From: Collimonas humicola
GTDB taxonomy: Bacteria; Pseudomonadota; Gammaproteobacteria; Burkholderiales; Burkholderiaceae_D
Length of the DNA: 64,000 nt
Assembly: GCF_018304945.1 (NCBI RefSeq)
Contig: NZ_JAGQEE010000006.1
Coordinates: 1-64,000 of the forward strand
Direction of reading: 5' to 3'
The position numbers were made by a program, and so were the translations under genes. Positions 45,088 through 55,574 of the stretch are shown in pieces. Below the pieces are notes generated by a model. The model saw only the letters and a program-made list of their open reading frames with translations. It searched no databases and was not told the DNA's origin. Positions within the stretch are counted from its first letter, which is position 1. Each line of letters starts with the position of its first letter.

Positions 45088-47247
45088 GTGCTTGATAAGA
45101 ATGCGTTACGAACACGTCGGCTAAAGAAAGCCGCATCGAATTTGGCAATCGTCATTTCCGGCACGCTGCTGCTTGCTTGCAGCGACGGCGGTCCGGGCTT
45201 GCAGGGCGCGGTTTCTTCGGCCGCGGCACTGCAGCCGCAAGCCAGGCCGTCGACCATTACGCCCTCAACCACGGTCGCTGCGCAGCCGGCCGCGACGCCG
45301 GCAACTACAACCCCAGCGGCTGCAAGGCCGATAGCGCCGATCCCGGCAGTTACAACGCCTGTCGCTACGACGCCAATCCCGCCAACCACGACAACGCCCG
45401 CAGTTACCGCGTCTCCCGCCGCCGCCAAGCCCGGTCTGTATATCAGCGAAGTAGCGGCCAACTACCGTCGCACGGATGGCGTCAGCTGGATGGAAGTTTT
45501 CAATAATTCGCCGCAAGCGATCCATCTGAGCGACTATCGCCTGCGCGCCACCGGCTGGAATATCGCCACGCAAGATATCAGTACGACGCCGATGAATTTC
45601 GATTTGCCGAAGGTGGATATTCCCGCCGGCGGCTATTTCGTCATCGCCGGGAAATTCATGCCGTTCCTGACGAATACGGATAAGTCGGCCTATGTCTCCA
45701 CGACTGTCGTCGCCAACGGCAGCAGCAAGACCTATCTGCCTTACTGGAGCGATACGGAAGGCTTTGTCGAACTGCTGACAGCCAGCGACGACAAGACAGC
45801 GGATTTCGTCCGCTTTGGCACTTCTGCGGTAACCCCGCAGACCACATCGGCATGGAGCGGCGCCAATGTAGCGGCGTTTCCCGCCAAGCCCGATTACGTG
45901 ACGGTAGCCACGCCCGATCCGCTGGACAGTTACGATGGTTCGATCGTACGGCTGAGCAGCAGTTTCACGGCCAGCGGCAGCAAGAGCGACTGGAGCAGGG
46001 TGGCGTTTTCGACGCCGGGCGGACCGAATGACGTGCCGGCCAATGCGATCGACAGCGACAAGGATGGCATCCCCGATTCCGCCAAAGTCCAGGGCGGGAC
46101 ATTCGGCGGCATGGATTTGTACAGCCTCGGCGCGCGCAAGGGCCAGCGCGATATTTTCATTCACGTCAACTACATGAGCAGCGCTACCGACATTGCGGTG
46201 ACGCCGCAGAAGAATGCCTTGCAAATGGTGGTCGATGCGTTCAGTACGCATAACATCAAGATTCACTTCGATGTCGGCAATCTGTTCAGCAGCTCGGTTT
46301 CTCCGGCCAGCTTTAATCTGTCGGGAGACGTCAGCCATAAAGTCGCCTTTGAGAAGTGCACGCAGATCCTTTCTTCGACCGCCACGTCCAATTCCGACTT
46401 CACGCCCGATGCCGGCTGTTCCAGCATCTACAAGTATTCGAGCGGATCGTTCGATGTCCGCCGCAAGCCGGTGTACCGCTTCATGCAGATGGCCAGCTCG
46501 CAGCTTGCCAGCGGCGCCGGCGGCTCGTCCGGCATCGCCGAGCTGCCTGGAAATAAATTCCTGGTGACGCTGGGCGGCTCCGGCTTTGCGCCGAATAACG
46601 CCAGGCTGCAGACCATCCTGGTCAATTTCCAGGGCGGCACCATCATGCATGAATTCGGCCACACCCTGGGATTGCATCACGGCGGCTTCGAGGACCAGAA
46701 CTACAAGCCGAACTATTTCAGCATCATGAACTACATGTACCAGCTCAACGGCCTGCCGGCCAATGCGAGCGGCGGCAACCCGCTGCAACGCTACTACTAC
46801 ACCTTCAACAACGATTTCAATTCATCGGTCCCGGGCCATGCCACGGCAGGCTCCTACAGGCTCTGCGATCTTCCTGAAGGGCCTTGCAATGCGGTGTTCA
46901 AGATTGACTATTCCAACGGCTCGGGCAAGAGCCTGGATGAAGCCAACCTGCTGGAAGCCGATAACATCGGCCGCGGCAGCGTGAATGGCGCCTATCTGGA
47001 CTGGAACCTGAACGGCATGCAGGATCCGGCGAGCTATGCCTATGACTACATCAACGGCCGGACTGTGATGCGGGACAATGACGACTGGAGCAAGCTGGTC
47101 CTGGCGGCCAATCCTCATCAAGTCGCCACGGCAGGCGTGGAAGCCAAGGCGGGCGTGCGCCTGGACGAACTCAGGAAACGTGGCATGATCGCCCTGGAGC
47201 AGCCGCCATCCGTGCATTTGCTGAAAGAACTCACCAGCCTGAAATAA
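45088..47247 (+). CDS. Lipoprotein with lamin-tail domain and metzincin-type protease domain
   Basis: A 719-residue predicted lipoprotein; the GTG start is preceded by GGAGG. Lipobox LLLAC is near residue 31, followed by a long Ala/Pro/Thr linker. Residues about 110-240 form a lamin-tail domain (LYISEVAANYRR, WMEVFNNSPQAIHLSDYRL, IPAGGYFVIAG). A calcium-loop-like DSDKDGIPD is near 325. The C-terminal half has HEFGHTLGLHHGG (nt 46648-46686), the HExxHxxGxxH zinc site of metzincins, and a Met-turn candidate SIMNYMY. So it is likely a surface-anchored metalloprotease. I know of no characterised relative. The next gene starts five bases later. Confidence 0.82.
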   Translation: MLDKNALRTRRLKKAASNLAIVISGTLLLACSDGGPGLQGAVSSAAALQPQARPSTITPSTTVAAQPAATPATTTPAAARPIAPIPAVTTPVATTPIPPTTTTPAVTASPAAAKPGLYISEVAANYRRTDGVSWMEVFNNSPQAIHLSDYRLRATGWNIATQDISTTPMNFDLPKVDIPAGGYFVIAGKFMPFLTNTDKSAYVSTTVVANGSSKTYLPYWSDTEGFVELLTASDDKTADFVRFGTSAVTPQTTSAWSGANVAAFPAKPDYVTVATPDPLDSYDGSIVRLSSSFTASGSKSDWSRVAFSTPGGPNDVPANAIDSDKDGIPDSAKVQGGTFGGMDLYSLGARKGQRDIFIHVNYMSSATDIAVTPQKNALQMVVDAFSTHNIKIHFDVGNLFSSSVSPASFNLSGDVSHKVAFEKCTQILSSTATSNSDFTPDAGCSSIYKYSSGSFDVRRKPVYRFMQMASSQLASGAGGSSGIAELPGNKFLVTLGGSGFAPNNARLQTILVNFQGGTIMHEFGHTLGLHHGGFEDQNYKPNYFSIMNYMYQLNGLPANASGGNPLQRYYYTFNNDFNSSVPGHATAGSYRLCDLPEGPCNAVFKIDYSNGSGKSLDEANLLEADNIGRGSVNGAYLDWNLNGMQDPASYAYDYINGRTVMRDNDDWSKLVLAANPHQVATAGVEAKAGVRLDELRKRGMIALEQPPSVHLLKELTSLK

Positions 47248-48524: not shown

Positions 48525-48662
48525 ATGAAATTCGCAAAAACCATTCTCGCCATTGGCGTCACGCTCCTCACTCTTGCCGCTGCCGGATGCGCACAGATGG
48601 ATCCCATGAATACGGCCCCTGGCATGGCGGCAGATCAGGGCAACATTTACTCCGGACAGTGA
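48525..48662 (+). CDS. Small (45-residue) predicted lipoprotein
   Basis: Read by hand because of its length. GGAGAG precedes the ATG by six bases. MKFAKTILAIGVTLLTLAAAGC is a full lipoprotein signal with lipobox AAGC (Cys22), followed by only 23 residues, AQMDPMNTAPGMAADQGN to the end. Its size recalls entericidin-like small lipoproteins, but the mature part has no recognised motif. It is on the same strand as the ECF sigma operon, 380 bases upstream of it, and may belong to the same stress function. Confidence 0.65.
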   Translation: MKFAKTILAIGVTLLTLAAAGCAQMDPMNTAPGMAADQGNIYSGQ

Positions 48663-48878
48663 CGCGAGCTGCAACAGTCCGTTGGCACGGTCCGAGGACG
48701 GCTGCCCGGTTATTTTTCCTGACAGCCGTGATCCCATTCATATGATTATTCGTCGGAGGCAAACCATGGGCCCCATCCGCGCCATGAAGTACGGTCAATG
48801 CTTGAGCGCCGGCAGCGTGCCCGTCGCCGCTGCTGCATTGGTGCGCTGCCGCAAGCCAAGCGGCGTGAGGATCTCCGC

Positions 48879-48908
48879 GTATACCGCCGAACTCTCCGTT
48901 TTATTCCC
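48879..48908 (-). promoter_or_regulatory. ECF-type promoter motif, copy A
   Basis: On the minus strand GGGAATAAA (48908-48900), 15 bases, then GTATAC (48884-48879). It diverges from copy C, 30 bases away. No minus-strand gene is evident downstream, so it may drive an RNA antisense to the small lipoprotein gene or be silent. Confidence 0.5.
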
Positions 48909-48938
48909 GGATTTGTCGCGGCAATTGAAAAATATCGC

Positions 48939-48968
48939 GGGAATAAATCCGGGTCGCTGACGGTTATG
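48939..48968 (+). promoter_or_regulatory. ECF-type promoter motif, copy C, upstream of the sigma operon
   Basis: GGGAATAAA (48939-48947), 15 bases, then GTTATG (48963-48968). The GGAAT-type -35 block is characteristic of many ECF sigma factors. It precedes the short ORF and sigma gene by about 75 bases, so the sigma factor probably activates its own operon. Confidence 0.65.
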
Positions 48969-49043
48969 GGTATGTGAGCGTCGGCATTTGCGCCGCTCGG
49001 ATGCTGCAAGCATCTCCCGACCGGACGGGCAATGGAGGAACTC

Positions 49044-49136
49044 ATGAAAAACGAACGCAAGACCCCCCCATATGATTGGCGCAGCTGTCGCCAAAGAGAC
49101 AAGGCGCAATTCAGGGAAAGCGGGAGATCATCGTGA
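49044..49136 (+). CDS. 30-codon ORF overlapping the sigma factor start, candidate leader peptide
   Basis: GGAGG five bases before an ATG opens a frame of 30 codons (MKNERKTPPYDWRSCRQRDK...). Its TGA stop (49134-49136) overlaps the GTG of the sigma gene (49133) in GTGA. The product is basic and hydrophilic and has one Cys. The strong ribosome binding site and the stop-start overlap suggest translational coupling. Alternatively the sigma factor starts upstream and this frame is chance. Confidence 0.4.
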   Translation: MKNERKTPPYDWRSCRQRDKAQFRESGRSS

Positions 49137-49762
49137 TCGCGGCCGACAAGTCGCGCCGGTTCGAAGAGCTGGCGTTGCCGCATCTGGACGCGGCCTACAA
49201 CCTGGCACGCTGGCTGACCGGCAGCGCCAGCGATGCCGACGACGTCGTGCAGGATGCTTACCTGCGCGCCTTCCGGTTCTTCGATAGTTTCCACGGCGAC
49301 AATGCGCGCGCCTGGCTGCTTGCGATCGTTCGGAACACCTGGTTTACCGAATGGCGCAGGCGGAGCGAGGCAGCTGACGACGCACCCTATGACGACGCAC
49401 TGCACGACGACGAGCGACTCCCGGGATGGGTCGACGAGATCGGCAGCGATCCCGAAGCGCTCGCCGTGCGGCGCGACGATGTGGACTTGATTCATCGTGC
49501 GCTCGGCGCATTGCCGGTCGAATATCGCGAGGTGCTGGTCCTGCGCGAGTTGGAAGACATGAGCTACCGCGACATTGCGACTGTCGCCGGCGTGCCGATC
49601 GGCACCGTGATGTCGCGGCTGGCGCGTGGCCGGGGCCTGCTTTGTGCGGCAGTGCGCAAGGCGCAGGGGGCGATGCCTTCGGAGCTTGCGCCCGTGCACG
49701 GCAAGACAGACGGCAACCTGCTCAGGATGCCTGCGCCGGGTTCACAAAAAGGAGTGAAGTAA
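49133..49762 (+). CDS. ECF-family RNA polymerase sigma factor
   Basis: A 209-residue sigma-70 family protein. Region 2 is LARWLTGSASDADDVVQDAYLRAFRFFDSF with the following RNTWFTEWRRR (about residues 25-75); region 4 is LPVEYREVLVLRELEDMSYRDIATVAGVPIGTVMSRLARGR (about 120-165). I use the GTG at 49133, which has GGGAG upstream and fits the usual ECF start; an in-frame ATG at 49076 gives 19 more residues. Its stop TAA overlaps the anti-sigma ATG by one base. Copies of a GGAAT-type promoter motif flank this gene. Confidence 0.9.
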   Translation: MIAADKSRRFEELALPHLDAAYNLARWLTGSASDADDVVQDAYLRAFRFFDSFHGDNARAWLLAIVRNTWFTEWRRRSEAADDAPYDDALHDDERLPGWVDEIGSDPEALAVRRDDVDLIHRALGALPVEYREVLVLRELEDMSYRDIATVAGVPIGTVMSRLARGRGLLCAAVRKAQGAMPSELAPVHGKTDGNLLRMPAPGSQKGVK

Positions 49763-50454
49763 TGGACAAGAAAGAAACCTTAAGTTCGCTGGGCAGTGTG
49801 CTGCGCGACGGATCGCTCTATCATCGCGCGCCACCTCATCTGCGCGCGCGCGTGCTCGCCGAGCTGCCGCGCGAGTCTACCCGCCGGACTGTCTTTGCAT
49901 GGAGCGGCTTCACGACGGATGGCGTGCGGGCGTGGCTGAACGGGGGTGTTACCGGGATCGCGGTCTGTGCGCTGGCGTTGAGTGCGGCCACCTTGATCCA
50001 GCGGCCAACGCCAACCGGCTCAATCGGCCAGGAGATTGTGTCGAGCCACGTGCGCGCGTTGTTGTCGCAGCACCCGATCGACGTTGTGTCGACCGATCAG
50101 CACACTGTCAAGCCGTGGTTCAATGGCAAGCTCGACTATACGCCGCCGGTCGTCGATCTCGCCGCGCAAGGTTTTCCGCTTGTCGGCGGACGAACCGATT
50201 ATGTGGGTCATCGCACCGTCGCGGTGCTGATCTATCGCTACCAGAAGCACCCCATCGACCTGTACGTATTTCCCGATGCCGGCGGTATGCCTGCTTCCGC
50301 CGCACGGGCCTCGGACGGCTATGCGATGGCTCACTGGCAGCGCAACGGCATGACTTACTGGGCCATCACCGATGCCCAATCTACCCACCTGCGCGCGTTC
50401 GAGCAAGCGATGCAGGCAGAGGAAGATCACGACGAAAACCCGTTGCGGGAATAA
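49762..50454 (+). CDS. Anti-sigma factor, single-pass membrane protein
   Basis: A 230-residue protein starting at the ATG that overlaps the sigma stop (TAATG). A short cytoplasmic N-terminus with no zinc HxxxCxxC motif, one membrane segment (GGVTGIAVCALALSAATLI, about residues 58-78), and a periplasmic part of about 150 residues. The periplasmic part contains VVDLAAQGFPLVGGRTDYV and YQKHPIDLYVFPDAG and ends in an acidic tail. Position and topology fit an anti-sigma factor that senses an envelope signal. Cognate inhibitor role is inferred. Confidence 0.82.
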   Translation: MDKKETLSSLGSVLRDGSLYHRAPPHLRARVLAELPRESTRRTVFAWSGFTTDGVRAWLNGGVTGIAVCALALSAATLIQRPTPTGSIGQEIVSSHVRALLSQHPIDVVSTDQHTVKPWFNGKLDYTPPVVDLAAQGFPLVGGRTDYVGHRTVAVLIYRYQKHPIDLYVFPDAGGMPASAARASDGYAMAHWQRNGMTYWAITDAQSTHLRAFEQAMQAEEDHDENPLRE

Positions 50455-50466
50455 ATCGAGACTGAC

Positions 50467-50496
50467 GGGAATATTTTCCTCTCATTCCGAGTTATA
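50467..50496 (+). promoter_or_regulatory. ECF-type promoter motif, copy D, upstream of the redox operon
   Basis: GGGAATATT (50467-50475), 15 bases, then GTTATA (50491-50496), 65 bases before the cytochrome c ATG. A second GGGAATAAA (50447-50455) overlaps the end of the anti-sigma gene but lacks a good -10 partner. The match to copy C argues that the redox genes are in the sigma regulon. Confidence 0.65.
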
Positions 50497-50561
50497 CCGT
50501 TTACAAGAACGGATTGCATTGATCGGACGCCAGCAAACTTGAAAATCGAAAGGACTTCAAC

Positions 50562-50951
50562 ATGAAACAAAATCGCTTATTCCTTGGCCTGGGCCTAGCC
50601 ATGCTGATGGGCTTCAGCGGCCCCGCAACCGCTGCCGGCGATGCGATACGCGGCCAGGAGCTCTACCAAGCCATGTGCATGTCTTGTCACTCGATTGACT
50701 ATAACGGCGTTGGCCCGGCACACAAGGGCCTGTTTGGCAGGAAGGCCGGCAGTCACGCTGATTACCTTTATTCGCCAGCTGTGAAGGCATCGAGCATTGT
50801 CTGGACCGACAAGACGCTGGATAAATGGCTGTCAAATCCCGAGAAACTGATTCCCGGGCAAAAAATGGGTTTCATGGTGCCGGCCGCAAAAGATCGCGCT
50901 GACTTGATTGCCTATTTGAAGAAGGAGGCGGGACGAGAAGAGAAGCCCTGA
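50562..50951 (+). CDS. Periplasmic class I cytochrome c
   Basis: A 129-residue exported cytochrome. Signal peptide to about residue 25 (ATAAGDA). Heme is attached at CMSCH (residues about 39-43), after the helix GQELYQAM; the sixth ligand Met lies in QKMGFMVPAA (about 105). Overall the pattern is cytochrome c2/c550-like (VGPAHKGLFGRKAG). First gene of a five-gene redox operon, just after an ECF-type promoter. It should accept or deliver electrons in the periplasm. Confidence 0.92.
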   Translation: MKQNRLFLGLGLAMLMGFSGPATAAGDAIRGQELYQAMCMSCHSIDYNGVGPAHKGLFGRKAGSHADYLYSPAVKASSIVWTDKTLDKWLSNPEKLIPGQKMGFMVPAAKDRADLIAYLKKEAGREEKP

Positions 50952-51029
50952 GCACTCGACCGGCCTGTTGAACACTTGTTCCGCAACAGCCTGCCATGCA
51001 GCTATTCCAACCATTTGAAGGAGAACATC

Positions 51030-51929
51030 ATGATTGATCGCAGAAGTTTCATGAAACTGACCGCTGTCGGCGGCGGCGCGGTATTTATTTCCGGGCTATA
51101 TGGCCAGGTGCAAGCTGCAGCCACCGACAAGGCGGCATCCGCTTACGACGATTTCTATTTCGTTCAGTTGTCCGACGTTCATTGGGGGTATAGCGGCGCA
51201 GCCAATCCAGATGCGCTCAATACATTCAAGAAAACGGTGGCAACTGTCAATGCACTTGAAGTGCAACCAGACTTTATTATCTTTACCGGGGATCTGACCC
51301 ACACGACGGATGATCCGAAGGAACGTCGGAAACGCATGGCCGAGTTCAAAGAGATTGCTGCCGGATTAAAGGTGAAAACGGTGCGTTTTATCCCGGGAGA
51401 GCATGACGCTTCGCTCGATAACGGCGCGGCCTTCAAGGAAAATTTTGGCCCGTCGAATTACGTGTTCGATCATAAGGGAGTGCATTTCATCGCTTTGGAT
51501 AACGTTTCCGATCCCGGCGCAAGCATTGGAGATGCCCAACTGGACTGGCTTAAAAACGATCTTGCCAAACAAGCGAAAGATGCGCGGATTGTCGTCTTCA
51601 CACATCGGCCCCTGTTCGATCTGGTACCTAAATGGGATTGGTCCACCCGCGATGGCGATAAAGCAATTGCGTTACTGACGCCATACAGCAATGTCACGGT
51701 GTTCTATGGCCACATTCACCAGGAGCATCACCACATGACGGGGCAGATCGCGCACCACGCCGCCAAGTCGCTCATTTTCCCGTTGCCTGCGCCAGGCTCG
51801 CAAGATAAGCGTACCCCCTTGCCGTGGGATGCCGCTGCGCCGAATAAAGGACTCGGTTTTCGCGAGGTGGAAGCTGAACGCAAGGATAGTGAATACAAGA
51901 TCGTTGAATTGCCTGTGACAAGGACATAA
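51030..51929 (+). CDS. Tat-exported calcineurin-like metallophosphoesterase
   Basis: A 299-residue protein with a twin-arginine signal (DRRSFMKLTAVGGGAVFISG). Metal-binding motifs of the calcineurin fold are QLSDVHWG (D..H), FTGDLTH (GD), GEHD in place of GNHD, FTHRP and FYGHIHQEHHH (GHxH). The Asn of GNHD being Glu is unusual. It is the second gene of the operon, 78 bases after cytochrome c. Substrate unknown; such proteins may dephosphorylate nucleotides or lipids, but the redox setting leaves this open. Confidence 0.88.
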   Translation: MIDRRSFMKLTAVGGGAVFISGLYGQVQAAATDKAASAYDDFYFVQLSDVHWGYSGAANPDALNTFKKTVATVNALEVQPDFIIFTGDLTHTTDDPKERRKRMAEFKEIAAGLKVKTVRFIPGEHDASLDNGAAFKENFGPSNYVFDHKGVHFIALDNVSDPGASIGDAQLDWLKNDLAKQAKDARIVVFTHRPLFDLVPKWDWSTRDGDKAIALLTPYSNVTVFYGHIHQEHHHMTGQIAHHAAKSLIFPLPAPGSQDKRTPLPWDAAAPNKGLGFREVEAERKDSEYKIVELPVTRT

Positions 51930-51932
51930 GCC

Positions 51933-52316
51933 ATGAATCATTCAAGAAGGCAGATATGTTTAAGTGCCGCCTACGGCATCGGGGCGCTTCTATCGGGGGC
52001 GGCCATCAACGCGCGGGGGCAGGCAAAGACGGCTGCGAAAGAAAGGGTAGTCAAAATCCAGGCCAAGAAATTCGTCTACACGCCGAACCAGATTATCCTG
52101 AAAAAGGGCGAGCCAGTCGTGCTTGAGTTCACCTCCGTGGATTTCGTGCATGGATTCAAGATACCGGACATGAATATCCGCGCCGACCTGCCGCCAGGCA
52201 AGGTCACTCAAGTCAGGCTGACACCTGACAAGGCCGGTGAATACGATTTTTTATGCGACAATTTCTGTGGCAGCGGCCATGAGGAAATGAGTGGAAAAAT
52301 AACCGTAATAGATTGA
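51933..52316 (+). CDS. Cupredoxin with a CuA-like copper site
   Basis: A 127-residue exported protein with a Tat-like start (SRRQICLSAAYG) and one cupredoxin domain. The copper ligands appear as VHGFKIP (His) and FLCDNFCGSGHEEM, which is the C-x3-C-x3-H-x2-M layout of the binuclear CuA site in cytochrome oxidase subunit II and nitrous oxide reductase. No other oxidase subunit is encoded nearby. Starts three bases after the metallophosphoesterase stop. Confidence 0.88.
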   Translation: MNHSRRQICLSAAYGIGALLSGAAINARGQAKTAAKERVVKIQAKKFVYTPNQIILKKGEPVVLEFTSVDFVHGFKIPDMNIRADLPPGKVTQVRLTPDKAGEYDFLCDNFCGSGHEEMSGKITVID

Positions 52317-52346
52317 TACATTTTCTGTCTTGATCGGAGGCCCCAG

Positions 52347-53045
52347 ATGAACCAGCAGAAACGCGCAGGCGCGAAAGTCCAAATTTCGACGAACGGCCCG
52401 TATATCGTCTCGGGCGATGTGCCTCTCAGTAAGGAGATCATCGGCGCAAACGAAGATGGCGAGTCGGTAAAGTGGGAGCAGGAACAGAAATATCCATCTC
52501 AGGGGCAGTACGCGCTGTGCCGCTGCGGCCATAGCGCGAACAAGCCGTTTTGCGACGGCTCGCATGCGAAAGCTGGATTTGACGGCACCGAAACCGCGAG
52601 CCGCCAGCCGTATCTCAAGCAGGCCAAAGTAATGCAAGGCCCGACGATGTCATTGACTGACGTCGAGAGCTTGTGCGCGTTCGCGCGCTTTTGCGATCCG
52701 CATGGCGGGGTGTGGAATCTCGTCAGCGCAACGGACGACCCTGCAGCGAGTAAGCAGTTCGTCAGCCAGGCTTGCGACTGCCCTTCGGGGCGTCTGGTGG
52801 CTTGGGACAAGCAGACCGGCAAACCGATCGAGCCGATGTATGAGCCATCCATATGCCTGATCGAAGACCCTGCCAAGGGGTGCTCCGGGCCGCTATGGCT
52901 GCGCGGCGGAGTGCAATTGATCGGGGGCGATGGTTTCGAATACGAAGTACGCAACCGCGTGACCTTGTGCCGCTGTGGTGCGTCGCAGAACAAGCCTTTC
53001 TGCGACGGCACGCATGCGTCGATCGGGTTCAGCGACAAGAACTGA
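52347..53045 (+). CDS. Double-CDGSH iron-sulfur protein
   Basis: A 232-residue soluble protein with two CDGSH-type 2Fe-2S sites: CRCGHSANKPFCDGSH near residue 58 and CRCGASQNKPFCDGTH near residue 210. Between them is a Cys-containing region (LCAFARFCDPHGG, SQACDCPSGR, SICLIEDPAKGCSGP) that resembles the iron-binding zinc-finger/mono-cluster module seen in bacterial CDGSH fusions. No signal peptide, so it is cytoplasmic. It is in the redox operon, 30 bases after the cupredoxin. Confidence 0.9.
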   Translation: MNQQKRAGAKVQISTNGPYIVSGDVPLSKEIIGANEDGESVKWEQEQKYPSQGQYALCRCGHSANKPFCDGSHAKAGFDGTETASRQPYLKQAKVMQGPTMSLTDVESLCAFARFCDPHGGVWNLVSATDDPAASKQFVSQACDCPSGRLVAWDKQTGKPIEPMYEPSICLIEDPAKGCSGPLWLRGGVQLIGGDGFEYEVRNRVTLCRCGASQNKPFCDGTHASIGFSDKN

Positions 53046-53054
53046 GTCGACATC

Positions 53055-53642
53055 ATGTTTAATAGAACACTGGGCGACAATCCTTCTCCCGCCAGGCAGA
53101 CCGTTCTCAGTCGAGTACGTATTGTGCTACCACTGGCGCTCGTCGCATTCGTCGCAATCACCGTCGGTTTTGTGGCAAGCAAGACCGTCAGGCAACCCTA
53201 CGAAACTCCCTTTTTTCACCTCTTCTTCAGCGATACCCTGCATATGAAGGCATGGCTGATAACAGCGTCGCTGTTGCTGGCATTGGGCCAGTTGCTGACG
53301 GCGTCGCGTATCTATGAAGTGCTGCGCTTCCCGCCGAAGGGGCGCTTCTACCATGTGGTGCATCGCTGGTCTGGGCGTACGGCCATCCTGCTGACGCTGC
53401 CTGTGGCCTATCACTGCATCTTCCTGCTCGGCTTCGGGACATACGATACCCGCGCCTACATTCACTCATTACTGGGATCATTTCTCTACGGGACCGTTCT
53501 CGCCAAGGTTCTCATAGTCCGCTCAAACGGCTTTCGTGGCTGGGTGCTGCCACTCGCGGGAAGTGCGCTGTTCTCCATTCTCCTGGGACTGTGGCTTACT
53601 TCTGCATTCTGGTACTTCAGTACCTTTGGCACTGGCATATAA
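53055..53642 (+). CDS. His-rich polytopic membrane protein (DUF6529-like, possible cytochrome b)
   Basis: A 195-residue protein with about five membrane segments. Histidines sit in or beside them: FFHLFF, TLHMKAW, VVHRWSGR, VAYHCIF and IHSLLGSF. Their spacing would allow two b hemes, as in small cytochrome b-like or ferric-reductase-like proteins. From memory it resembles DUF6529. It is the last gene of the operon, nine bases after the CDGSH gene. Heme binding is inferred. Confidence 0.65.
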   Translation: MFNRTLGDNPSPARQTVLSRVRIVLPLALVAFVAITVGFVASKTVRQPYETPFFHLFFSDTLHMKAWLITASLLLALGQLLTASRIYEVLRFPPKGRFYHVVHRWSGRTAILLTLPVAYHCIFLLGFGTYDTRAYIHSLLGSFLYGTVLAKVLIVRSNGFRGWVLPLAGSALFSILLGLWLTSAFWYFSTFGTGI

Positions 53643-53737: not shown

Positions 53738-55159
53738 TTAGCGCGCTACTTCCTTAAGATAGGTATTGCGGGCAGCAAATGCGGTGGGCGTGAAATCGGT
53801 AAATACGCCGTCAACGCCGGCTCGGTAAAATGCCAGGTATTCTGCCGTTGGATCCCCCTTATAAGCGCCTGCCAGGTATTTCGCTTCGTTGCGGAAGGTG
53901 AATATATGAACGAACAAACCGGCTTTATGAGCGTCGCTGATCAGGCTGGTTGGCTTGATGGTGTCGACCTCGGCCAAGCTGGCTTTGGACGACGAATCCT
54001 GGGCTGGAGCAGCGGTGAGCGACATTGCCTGCGGCTTCCACGGACCGATGCCGTCGGCGTAGGTTTTGACCTCCGCCAATCCTGCCGGCGTAAGCATCGC
54101 ACCGAAGGAGCGCGGGTCGCCCGCTACGGTCCAGCTATATGGGCGGCCGCTGACGAACGTGTTGGGTTTGTCAGTGATGAAAATGGTTTCGCCGGTCTTG
54201 AAGTTCATGCCGTTTCCATCGACTAGCTGAACCGCTTTGGATTTCAGGCCGATAGAGCGCAGGTATTTCAAGCTGGCCGGGTCAAAGCTTTGCACAAAGA
54301 CCGGGGCATCCTTGCGATTGAGATCGTTGTCTTTGAGGGCTTTGAGGAAAGCCTCCTCAAACGGATGGCTGCCCGGTGCGCCGCAACCGTTTGCAATGGC
54401 CTGGGCATTATTCCAGATCGGATTTTTGCTTTCTGGATAGGTCGTAATGACGCGGCCAGTAGCCGCGCTTTTTGCTCTTGCAATGTCGATCACTTCCTGA
54501 AAGCTCAGAATCGGCAACTTGCCGTTAAGCTCGGTTGGGCGCTGGTCGCGGGCATCGTAAGTGGTGCCGCCTATCCATTGCCTCAGTTCGGCCATTGTGA
54601 AATCGCTGATTGACCAGTCGTTGGTATGGTCTTCGCCATCAACGACCAATGATTTCAATACCGATTTTGGATCGTTGGGATCGGTCAAGTCACTCAGGTA
54701 CTGTGCTGGACCATTTTCTGTTGTGGCCGGATATCCGGCATTGATCAATACGCCTGGAACAGTGCGCTTACGGCTTGCAACATTGGCATTCGTCTTTGCG
54801 ACTTCGCTGATGTTGGTGTTGTCGCTCAACCAGGGGTTGTGGCGCGCCACCAATACGCAGTCTTTGGTCATGTGCAGATCCAGTTCGAGCGAATCTGCGC
54901 CAGCATCGGCTGCATTCTCGTAAGAAGCCCGGGTTTCTTCCGGATACAGTCCCGGCAGGCCGCGATGCCCGATAACCAAGGGGGGCGCACCGTCAAGGGT
55001 TTTGAACGAAGCAGATGCGGCCGACCCGGCGCCAGGGAAACTCCCGTTCATATTGCTGCAAGCGCCCACTAGCAGGCCGCATCCGAGTAGGGTAAAGCGG
55101 GCAAGGAGTTTTGTGACAAGCGGCGGAGCCAGGCGAGTGTGCATGTGTCGTCTCTTCAA
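53738..55159 (-). CDS. Glycerophosphodiester phosphodiesterase lipoprotein
   Basis: A 473-residue exported GDPD. Signal with lipobox VGACS (Cys about residue 34). Catalytic residues: GHRGLPGLYPEET (HRG and E), DSLELDLHMTKD (ExD) and LVARHNPWL (His). A TIM-barrel follows to VDGVFTDFTP at the C-terminus. It hydrolyses glycerophosphodiesters to glycerol-3-phosphate and an alcohol in the periplasm. Larger than the 330-residue GlpQ because of insertions near residues 130-200. ATG at 55144 is an alternative start. Convergent with the redox operon. Confidence 0.9.
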   Translation of the reverse strand: MKRRHMHTRLAPPLVTKLLARFTLLGCGLLVGACSNMNGSFPGAGSAASASFKTLDGAPPLVIGHRGLPGLYPEETRASYENAADAGADSLELDLHMTKDCVLVARHNPWLSDNTNISEVAKTNANVASRKRTVPGVLINAGYPATTENGPAQYLSDLTDPNDPKSVLKSLVVDGEDHTNDWSISDFTMAELRQWIGGTTYDARDQRPTELNGKLPILSFQEVIDIARAKSAATGRVITTYPESKNPIWNNAQAIANGCGAPGSHPFEEAFLKALKDNDLNRKDAPVFVQSFDPASLKYLRSIGLKSKAVQLVDGNGMNFKTGETIFITDKPNTFVSGRPYSWTVAGDPRSFGAMLTPAGLAEVKTYADGIGPWKPQAMSLTAAPAQDSSSKASLAEVDTIKPTSLISDAHKAGLFVHIFTFRNEAKYLAGAYKGDPTAEYLAFYRAGVDGVFTDFTPTAFAARNTYLKEVAR

Positions 55160-55323: not shown

Positions 55324-55399
55324 TGGCTCCCCGACCTGGACTCGAACCAGGGACCTGCGGATTAACAGTCCGTCGCTCTACCAACTGAGCTATCAGGGA
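55324..55399 (-). tRNA. tRNA-Asn (anticodon GTT)
   Basis: 76 bases including encoded CCA. On the minus strand the acceptor TCCCTGA pairs with TCGGGGA (G-U allowed), the D-arm is GCTCAGTTGGTAGAGC, the anticodon loop CTGTTAA gives GTT, and the T-arm contains GGTTCGAGTCC. Full cloverleaf. Confidence 0.97.
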
Positions 55400-55451
55400 A
55401 TTGGGCAACTAATTTTCTTGCAGGGGAAAATACCAGATTGCCGGAACAATG

Positions 55452-55480
55452 AAAAAAGGCCCTCAAGTCTGAGAGCCTTA
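55452..55480 (-). terminator. Rho-independent terminator or spacer hairpin after tRNA-Leu
   Basis: On the minus strand AAGGCTCTC and GAGGGCCTT pair with one mismatch around a six-base loop, followed by a T-run. It separates the two tRNA genes. Confidence 0.8.
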
Positions 55481-55487
55481 TATTCAT

Positions 55488-55574
55488 TGGTGCCGAGAGC
55501 CGGAATCGAACCGGCACGCTGTCTCCAGCGCGGGATTTTGAGTCCCGTGCGTCTACCTATTCCGCCATCTCGGC
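55488..55574 (-). tRNA. tRNA-Leu (anticodon CAA)
   Basis: 87 bases with encoded CCA and a long variable arm, as expected for a class II tRNA. Acceptor GCCGAGA pairs with TCTCGGC; the anticodon stem CGGGA/TCCCG holds loop CTCAAAA, giving CAA, which reads TTG codons. T-arm GGTTCGAATCC. Confidence 0.97.

Follow-up and report, generated by a model that had tools for sequence, protein, structure and literature searches.

A block of seven genes in the genus Collimonas would, on a reading we rate at about one chance in two, encode a membrane-sensed, ECF sigma-controlled periplasmic redox response. At its center is a core of four genes, for an ECF sigma factor, an anti-sigma factor, a metallophosphoesterase (MPE), and a cupredoxin, which by its recurrence across phyla is an evolutionary unit extending far beyond Collimonas. 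No part of the system is more constant than the MPE, and none is odder.

Layout of the Gene Block

All seven genes are on the forward strand of the window (the whole 64,000-nucleotide stretch of DNA that was analyzed), in the order ECF sigma factor, anti-sigma factor, cytochrome c, Tat-exported MPE, CuA-type cupredoxin, double-CDGSH protein, and DUF6529 protein (Table 1). This agrees in order, place, and strand with a preliminary description, as do the tight spacing of the last four genes (gaps of 3, 30, and 9 bp, in that order) and the lack of a terminal oxidase gene among the seven. Six of the seven have Pfam or NCBIfam support. The block is far beyond chance: a random collection of genes is ruled out by its conservation within Collimonas together with the cross-phylum distribution of the core.

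Table 1. Genes and promoter-like sites of the block, in window coordinates.
Feature	Position	Strand	Evidence
Putative 45-aa lipoprotein gene, upstream of sigma; system membership uncertain	48525..48662	+	76-98% identity, 6/6 other Collimonas compared
Divergent ECF-type promoter-like site, GGAATA-N17-GTA	48882..48907	-	Present in 6/6 other Collimonas with sigma gene
ECF-type promoter of sigma gene, GGAATA-N17-GTTAT	48940..48967	+	Kept at -190/-193 of sigma in 6/6 Collimonas relatives
ECF sigma factor	49133..49762	+	PF04542, PF08281, PRK12533
Membrane anti-sigma factor, one TM, periplasmic C-terminal domain (predicted topology)	49762..50454	+	Overlaps sigma stop codon; hydrophobic 57-81
ECF-type promoter of redox operon, GGAATA-N17-GTTAT	50468..50495	+	-94 of cytochrome gene, 7/7 other Collimonas
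Periplasmic class I cytochrome c	50562..50951	+	PF00034; single CxxCH; hydrophobic N-terminus 6-24
Tat-exported calcineurin-like MPE, GEHD for GNHD (E124)	51030..51929	+	PF00149, TIGR01409
Exported cupredoxin, complete CuA ligand set	51933..52316	+	PF13473, PF00116, CoxB/NosZ models; PDB CuA domains
Two CDGSH 2Fe-2S motifs and Fer4_19 domain, probably cytosolic	52347..53045	+	PF09360 (two stretches), PF06902
DUF6529 membrane protein, candidate b-type cytochrome	53055..53642	+	PF20139, E 3.9e-51; conserved His; AlphaFold five helices

Sigma Factor, Anti-Sigma Factor, and Promoters

Control of the redox operon by the sigma factor is well supported by the promoter sequences, and the operon's designation as ECF-controlled in the preliminary description holds up, on promoter evidence stronger than that description could draw on: the sigma gene and the operon have a common, conserved promoter type. 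GGAATA-N16-18-GTTAT occurs twice in the window, where 0.02 matches would be expected. With one more G (GGGAATA-N16-18-GTTAT) there are two matches genome-wide, both in the block, one upstream of the sigma gene and the other 94 bp ahead of the cytochrome gene, although the same pattern read backwards likewise has two matches in the genome. The redox-operon promoter is also found, at -93, in a Janthinobacterium relic. The 34 MPE loci from clades A and B have 33 sites matching GGAATA-N16-18-GT[TC], of which 18 are at MPE or sigma gene starts (1.1 expected); four control patterns place no sites there. No strict match is found at these starts in 21 of the 34, or at the MPE loci of Rokubacteria, Streptomyces, and Mycobacteroides. 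In a Burkholderiaceae MAG, such sites precede both the MPE operon and a divergent DUF6529 gene; in the window, no convincing minus-strand gene was found downstream of the divergent site.

The sigma gene begins with GTG at 49133, with TTG at 49076 also possible. Its product matches PRK12533 (305.9 bits, cut-off 248), a model that names no ECF group. The anti-sigma protein has no Pfam or NCBIfam match, but a single hydrophobic stretch (residues 57-81 of 230), and its relatives are annotated as anti-sigma factors and encoded next to sigma genes. The nearest sigma/anti-sigma pair (80 and 62% identity) is in Cupriavidus necator, at a locus without MPE or cupredoxin, and more distant anti-sigma relatives are found beside other genes, so that the regulator family is not tied to the MPE. 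One Collimonas genome, OK242, has lost the sigma gene and most of the anti-sigma gene, and in C. antrihumi the sigma frame is interrupted by an in-frame stop codon (residue 98 in the alignment).

Among the closest known systems is that of Sinorhizobium meliloti RpoE4, which includes an ECF sigma factor, a membrane anti-sigma factor, GGAATA/GT promoters, autoregulation, and a small operon with cytochrome c and cupredoxin genes (PMC6180224), all in common with the window. Its sorT-sorU-azu2 operon encodes a sulfite oxidase, a cytochrome c, and a pseudoazurin (PMC6180224). The -35 GGAATA/-10 GT consensus given there for ECF26 promoters is found upstream of both the window sigma gene and its target operon; the promoter before the S. 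meliloti rpoE1 operon (GGGAATAAATCC...; PMC6180224) is nearly the same as the window's, and a lipoprotein gene lies upstream of rpoE1 (PMC6180224), as a putative one does upstream of the Collimonas sigma gene. The predicted anti-sigma topology (N-terminal domain, one transmembrane segment, periplasmic C-terminal domain) is also that of ECF26 partners.

RpoE1 and RpoE4 are responsive to sulfite compounds and activate genes for cytochrome c and a cupredoxin (PMC6180224). The Collimonas module could conceivably be a counterpart of the RpoE4 regulon, defending against sulfur oxyanions (sulfite or thiosulfate), with a sulfur compound as the substrate of the MPE, as of SoxB. We think this unlikely. 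The ECF26 likeness of the window sigma factor is one of promoter and anti-sigma layout, and the seven genes encode no sulfite oxidase, SoxYZ, or SoxB. Where the S. meliloti regulon has sulfite oxidase and pseudoazurin (PMC6180224), the window has the MPE and a CuA protein, with additional CDGSH and DUF6529 genes. Evidence from gene neighborhoods, which cuts both ways, is taken up below.

The GEHD Metallophosphoesterase

SoxB, which acts on a sulfur compound, belongs to the wider phosphoesterase superfamily. The window MPE matches PF00149 (53.3 bits, cut-off 21.5) and is distantly similar to Rv0805 and CpdA, sharing with such calcineurin-like enzymes the fold family and the ligand order DxH, GD, GxHD, H, GHxH; it scores far below the cut-off of the CpdA equivalog PRK11148 (50.1 bits, cut-off 225). 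D49, H51, D88, H192, H228, and H230 are invariant in 12 sequences. It differs from the Rv0805/CpdA type in its Tat export, in its frequent pairing with electron carriers, and in the replacement of the metal-ligand Asn of GNHD by Glu (Glu124 here, aligning with the Rv0805 Asn, N97 by count). By this motif the GEHD proteins are a distinct branch. Glu is present in all 57 members counted, a figure favored by the A2 profile, which was built from GEHD sequences and applied with a strict cut-off. Within the Collimonas genome itself, 10 Metallophos proteins could be resolved at this position: the two module copies have Glu, and the other eight Asn.

The remaining metal ligands are retained, as is the catalytic His-Asp, so that the MPE may simply be a hydrolase. 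An ordinary exported phosphodiesterase for nucleotides or lipids, with the redox proteins merely co-regulated in a general envelope-stress regulon, would fit the PF00149 match, the distant likeness to Rv0805 and CpdA, and the conserved ligands. It would account less well for the Asn-to-Glu change marking the branch, for the association of all three clades with one-electron carriers, and for the lack of other conserved stress genes around the MPE, and we consider it improbable.

Cupredoxin and Cytochrome c

The partner of the MPE varies by clade: a CuA-type cupredoxin, a blue copper protein, or a c-type cytochrome. Cupredoxin type tracks MPE clade in all 33 cupredoxin-bearing loci. The window protein has a complete CuA ligand pattern (HGF ... 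C-X3-C-X3-H-X2-M; here HGF and CDNFCGSGHEEM), and in the PDB it is closest to CuA domains from subunit 2 of Thermus oxidases (E 1e-18). It shares five ligands and their sequence context with the CuA domains of cytochrome c oxidase subunit II and nitrous-oxide reductase, but is a stand-alone exported protein of 127 aa; its CoxB score is 71 against a cut-off of 147.7, and the block has no oxidase or N2O reductase gene. Also unlike those domains, 12 of 20 of the CuA-type cupredoxins examined have the first His ligand replaced by Met.

Exchange between blue and CuA sites suggests that what is retained is the property common to both, one-electron transfer. This weighs against a copper or oxidative envelope stress response in which the cupredoxin stores or delivers copper (CuA/Sco-like, for oxidase assembly), the MPE is a metal-dependent helper, and electron transfer is secondary. 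Such a role seems doubtful to us, even with a copper protein as the most constant MPE partner (33 of 40 loci) and a Met substitution that would suit copper binding no less than fast electron transfer.

Conservation of the Full Set and of the Core

Collimonas is the only genus in which the full set was seen, in seven of seven other DUF6529 carriers (one, OK242, without the sigma gene), with 85-96% identity of the block proteins. Of 46 distinct places where the MPE was found, 40 were fetched, leaving aside the window itself and G699, G678, G720, G757, and G792. Among these 40 loci, a cupredoxin gene adjoins the MPE in 33, and the sigma/anti-sigma pair is present in 31. The six clade C loci (L181, L183, L188, L189, L190, and L192), in which no cupredoxin or sigma gene was detected, were set apart from the promoter and neighbor counts; of the 34 clade A and B loci, three are without the sigma pair. 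No carrier was detected beside the core MPE at L182 and L103.

The five redox genes are not one universal system: the CDGSH protein is matched in 2 of 40 genomes of the family (its own and one weak match), and in the family genomes scanned DUF6529 occurs only in its own genus. The preliminary description, which had envisaged a conserved gene set, stands in part: the full set is kept within Collimonas and the core recurs elsewhere, but CDGSH does not follow DUF6529. It had also listed the MPE as just one component among several. Among the best 80 of 289 DUF6529 loci, a CDGSH gene is found only in the six from Collimonas, and of the 40 other MPE loci, one (L187) has a short CDGSH gene near the core. 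CDGSH joins the core nearly only in Collimonas.

Neighboring genes were called crudely, from ORF length and GC position. No other family occurs in more than three of 123 neighbor proteins at the 34 clade A and B loci (of 148 listed, clade C loci and one L187 gene being omitted). A sulfur or copper pathway sought through these neighbors did not appear: neither sulfur nor copper-handling families recur. Some neighbors at clade C and plasmid loci do speak for these readings. For sulfur, a SoxA/TsdA-type cytochrome c adjoins the MPE in both clade C loci tested against Pfam, soxYZ and an FAD oxidoreductase are near the S. meliloti clade C MPE, and a molybdopterin oxidoreductase is near the sigma-cupredoxin-MPE genes of a Mycobacteroides plasmid. 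For copper, the same S. meliloti MPE has genes annotated as SCO and cytochrome oxidase in its vicinity, and an MbnH/MauG-type diheme enzyme adjoins the MPE in L189, the one locus tested for it.

DUF6529 and CDGSH Proteins

DUF6529 is a candidate heme-b membrane protein. It matches PF20139 (173.5 bits, gathering cut-off 23.3) and no other Pfam family. Over 50 sequences, H103 and H137 are invariant and H120 is at least 90% conserved. A five-helix AlphaFold model of middling quality (pLDDT 72.9) gave no significant Foldseek match; STEAP, cytochrome b561, and NOX-type proteins, at ranks 1, 3, 4, and 8, have a weak fold resemblance and a His pair at helix ends, but DUF6529 has only one clear bis-His pair placed for heme.

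Scans of 398 genomes of the phylum and 245 of the family recovered DUF6529 in one and eight, respectively, the eight all belonging to its own genus. It accompanies the core, or most of it, in Collimonas, the Burkholderiaceae MAG, Rokubacteria, and one Streptomyces plasmid; elsewhere it is often near other electron carriers. Among the best 80 of 289 loci, 48 have a profiled carrier within 2.5 kb (Rieske in 33, blue copper in 9) and 32 have none, three of these with a small CxxCH frame. The actinomycete proteins encoded with Rieske genes are of the same PF20139 family (33-51% identity), often with a one-electron carrier adjacent, but the window partners are CDGSH, CuA, and cytochrome c proteins rather than Rieske.

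The CDGSH protein matches PF09360 in two stretches (139.9 bits) and, having no hydrophobic stretch, is probably cytosolic.

A Possible Periplasmic Redox Response

In the sigma-controlled redox response we favor, an envelope signal would cause the anti-sigma factor to release the sigma factor. The exported GEHD protein, whose dinuclear metal site would be richer in carboxylate through Glu124, would act on a periplasmic substrate, and electrons would pass between it, or its product, and a copper carrier of its own (CuA in the window's clade, blue copper in another). In the Collimonas block, they might continue to cytochrome c, and DUF6529, as a heme-b protein with its H120/H137 pair near the periplasmic face, could link these periplasmic carriers to the quinone or respiratory pool of the membrane. 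The CDGSH protein would be a cytosolic Fe-S accessory. The electron-transfer chain across the inner membrane proposed in the preliminary description is possible, but the CDGSH protein is probably cytosolic, and of the conserved His residues of DUF6529 only a single pair is positioned for heme.

Tentatively, the GEHD proteins might form a redox branch of the MPE superfamily: exported dinuclear-metal enzymes that oxidize or reduce a periplasmic substrate and exchange electrons with a carrier particular to each clade (blue copper, CuA, or cytochrome c), sigma-switched in two of three clades, and with DUF6529 as a new heme-b membrane link in some lineages.

Implications

Among open-license PMC papers, none was found that combines a metallophosphoesterase with CDGSH, cupredoxin, anti-sigma, blue copper, or MauG, the plastocyanin and azurin matches listed include no metallophosphoesterase, a further search led to a paper on a Bacteroides regulon, and there is no mention of DUF6529, for which the present gene context is the first functional hint found. 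The preliminary description likewise knew of no system with this set. If the proposal is correct, a large and well-known hydrolase superfamily holds a redox-linked branch, spanning Proteobacteria, Rokubacteria, and Actinobacteria, whose members are annotated as plain metallophosphoesterases. The core is compact, with four genes, its own regulator and promoter, and two copies in this genome, and includes a clean natural exchange of copper sites (blue, CuA, and Met-substituted CuA-like) in apparently the same role. It is therefore well suited to studying how electron carriers are chosen and what ECF regulators sense. The gene set may represent a novel mode of electron handling outside the inner membrane.

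Gene content and conservation of the operon

The seven consecutive forward-strand genes named in the preliminary description are all present; their families and other features are listed in the table. In the PDB, the cupredoxin has its best relatives among the CuA domains of oxidase subunit 2. Within the phylum DUF6529 is rare: the 5.62 Mb C. humicola genome is the only carrier among 398 genomes. In the family it occurs in 8 of 245 genomes, all 8 among the 15 listed from Collimonas, and in a scan of named genomes the closest loci were from this genus (about 90% DUF6529 identity). All seven other Collimonas carriers keep the block in the same order at 85–96% identity, that of OK242 being partial: its sigma gene is absent and its anti-sigma gene reduced to its end. 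In C. antrihumi a single in-frame stop interrupts the sigma reading frame, at aligned residue 98. With the sigma gene lost in one strain and broken in the assembly of another, the redox genes therefore persist without an intact regulator. The CDGSH protein may be a cytosolic Fe-S accessory. Directly upstream of sigma, other Collimonas encode a lipoprotein of about 178 aa; only the first part of this gene is left here.

Features of the Collimonas humicola window and of comparison loci
Feature	Position	Strand	Assignment or content
Lipoprotein	45088-47247		HEFGHTLGLHHG zinc-protease motif (by eye, ORF list)
45-aa lipoprotein	48525-48662		intact, conserved
Lipoprotein remnant	48682-48960		first part of ~178-aa gene
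ECF-type site	48882-48907	-	divergent
ECF-type site	48940		before sigma; GGAATA-N16-18-GTTAT
ECF sigma	49133-49762	+	PRK12533
Anti-sigma	49762-50454	+	no Pfam/NCBIfam family match
ECF-type site	50468		before cytochrome gene; GGAATA-N16-18-GTTAT
Cytochrome c, class I	50562-50951	+	family match
Tat metallophosphoesterase (MPE)	51030-51929	+	family match
Cupredoxin	51933-52316	+	COX2/CoxB-type CuA ligands
CDGSH protein	52347-53045	+	two CDGSH motifs with Fer4_19
DUF6529 protein	53055-53642	+	family match
Lipoprotein	53738-55159	-	resembles glycerophosphodiester phosphodiesterase (by eye); convergent with operon
tRNA-Asn, tRNA-Leu	55324-55574	-	1.7 kb beyond operon
Second four-gene unit, same genome (L172)	G000:C11:492500-504500
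Secreted protein, about 230 aa	L043:7109-7924		start MSRLGPVYTLAAGA; upstream of DUF6529; similar places in Streptosporangiales
78-aa double-CDGSH gene	L187:3473-3709	-	about 2 kb from clade A core
Diheme enzyme, MPE, cytochrome c	L189:4861-7535		consecutive; MbnH/MauG type (tested here), GEHD, SoxA/TsdA type
Diheme enzyme, MPE, cytochrome c	L190:4369-7014		consecutive, as in L189
Decayed copy, Janthinobacterium lividum plasmid	L215:4274-6593		sigma, promoter site, shortened cytochrome, cupredoxin

Putative promoter sites

According to PMC6180224, the published consensus for ECF26 sigma factors of Sinorhizobium meliloti has GGAATA at -35 and GT at -10. The pattern GGAATA-N16-18-GTTAT has two matches in the 64 kb window, against 0.02 expected in shuffled sequences. 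Extended to GGGAATA-N16-18-GTTAT, it has two matches genome-wide, at these same two sites of the cluster; the backwards control pattern also has two, so that the genome-wide count is modest taken alone, yet both true matches fall in the cluster. The site at -94 of the cytochrome gene is conserved in 7/7 relatives, and that at -190/-193 of the sigma gene in 6/6. Control of the operon by its sigma factor, as originally proposed, is supported by these like sites and their conservation. The divergent minus-strand site is also conserved; no convincing gene was found downstream of it, and it possibly serves a short transcript or small RNA.

Among 34 MPE loci, 18 of the 33 sites with the pattern GGAATA-N16-18-GT[TC] are at MPE or sigma starts, in 13 loci, against 1.1 expected and none for each of four control patterns; at that stringency the starts in the other 21 loci have no such site. 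None of these promoter sites was found at the MPE loci of Rokubacteria, Streptomyces, or Mycobacteroides. A Burkholderiaceae MAG (L027) has one site 56 bp upstream of the MPE frame and another about 60 bp upstream of a divergent DUF6529 gene, an arrangement that would give two separate transcripts from one kind of promoter. In the decayed Janthinobacterium copy, a site lies 93 bp upstream of the cytochrome remnant; its cupredoxin has one ligand Cys changed, and no MPE match was found in this copy.

A four-gene core beyond Collimonas

Changing the query from DUF6529 to the MPE brought a wider unit into view. A profile built from 12 MPEs (A2) matched at 1e-40 in 33 of 300 Burkholderiales genomes, and it matched in 15 of 299 genomes from the phylum, the two draws overlapping in some genomes; this gave 46 distinct MPE places, of which 40 were fetched. 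A cupredoxin gene adjoins the MPE in 33 of these 40, and sigma and anti-sigma genes of the window's kind are found in 31. The five redox proteins had been suggested to form one electron-transfer chain; as a single conserved system this is not supported, and should give way to a core of sigma, anti-sigma, MPE, and cupredoxin with lineage-specific additions. Among 123 neighboring proteins, no family outside the core recurred in more than three.

The second unit in the C. humicola genome has sigma, a zinc-finger anti-sigma, a GEHD-type MPE (66% identical to that in the window), and a CuA-like cupredoxin in which Met replaces the first His. A Collimonas without DUF6529 likewise has a four-gene unit, as do two Caballeronia, one Cupriavidus, and one Burkholderia plasmid; only the MPE was seen on another Burkholderia plasmid (L103). 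Sigma, cupredoxin, and MPE genes are together on a Mycobacteroides plasmid. Two Streptomyces plasmids were examined: one again has these three genes together, and on the second, which carries cupredoxin, MPE, and DUF6529, no sigma was detected. One Rokubacteria locus has the order sigma, zinc-finger-type anti-sigma, blue cupredoxin, MPE, lipoprotein, DUF6529; a second, arranged differently, combines DUF6529 with sigma, anti-sigma, cupredoxin, and MPE, and further Rokubacteria contigs carry parts of this set. In locus L187, which has the separate small CDGSH gene, the MPE frame is interrupted by a stop.

The GEHD motif and its electron carriers

In calcineurin-type phosphoesterases a metal-ligand Asn comes from the motif GNH[DE]. 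This position is Glu (GEHD) in 57/57 MPEs, collected with a profile itself made from GEHD proteins. The C. humicola genome has 12 Metallophos proteins, 10 of them readable at the motif: eight have Asn, and the two with Glu are the two module copies. Glu124 of the window MPE aligns to an Asn of Rv0805, which by our own count we take to be N97; the PDB list for this comparison includes an N97A entry. The remaining metal ligands are conserved; the Glu may alter the chemistry of the metal site. The MPE tree has three well-supported clades, with long branches flagged: clade A, to which the window MPE belongs, has 26 rows, clade B has 24, and clade C has 7.

The carrier differs from clade to clade. 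Every cupredoxin found at the fetched clade A loci (20) is of the CuA type, and every one found in clade B (13) is a blue copper protein. Among the former, six carry a complete set of CuA ligands, like the window protein; 12 have Met replacing the first His (VMGF vs. VHGF), and two lack the Met ligand. No carrier gene was detected in L182 (clade A) or in L103 (clade B); L027 (clade B) has a cytochrome, with no cupredoxin detected. Neither cupredoxin nor sigma was found at clade C loci. In both of those tested with Pfam (L189 and L102) a SoxA/TsdA-type cytochrome c adjoins the MPE, and five more (L181, L183, L188, L190, and L192) have further CxxCH genes nearby, by motif only. A diheme enzyme of the MbnH/MauG type was identified in L189, and the L189/L190 neighborhood appears to be one more redox cluster not yet described.

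In each of the three clades the GEHD branch thus goes together with one-electron carriers, although these are unrelated to one another. It is mainly this association of genes, not biochemistry, that suggests a redox reading for the branch; electrons would presumably pass between parts of the module.

The DUF6529 protein

Across 50 DUF6529 sequences two His residues, H103 and H137, do not vary, and a third, H120, is at least 90% conserved; H103 has no conserved His partner. The AlphaFold model (pLDDT 72.9) places H120 near the end of helix 97–127 and H137 close to where helix 132–156 begins, on the same side of the membrane, probably the periplasmic one by our reading of the positive-inside rule. 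This arrangement would allow one bis-His heme b, so that DUF6529 is a candidate heme protein. A Foldseek search with the model ranked STEAP and b561 proteins among the top results, none significant. Among the best 80 of 289 DUF6529 loci, one or more of the profiled electron carriers occur within 2.5 kb in 48 and none in 32; genes within that distance include Rieske (33), blue copper (9), MPE (11), and sigma (9). No mention of DUF6529 was found in open-licence PMC literature. In several actinomycetes among the matches listed, a secreted protein precedes DUF6529; the piece tested had no Pfam match.

Origin and possible function

The nearest pair to the window's sigma and anti-sigma is from Cupriavidus necator (80 and 62% identity) and accompanies no MPE; the next, from Caballeronia and one further genome (70–73 and 50–53%), accompany clade B enzymes. 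The window MPE (identity up to 71%) and cupredoxin belong to clade A. L027, whose MPE is in clade B, has relatives of both the window's cytochrome (54%) and its DUF6529 protein (69%), lying together. The Collimonas operon thus looks, from sequence comparison, to have been assembled from parts of related modules.

What the module most likely provides is a redox response in the periplasm, sensed at the membrane; for its substrate and trigger, the leading candidates are sulfur oxyanions and copper.
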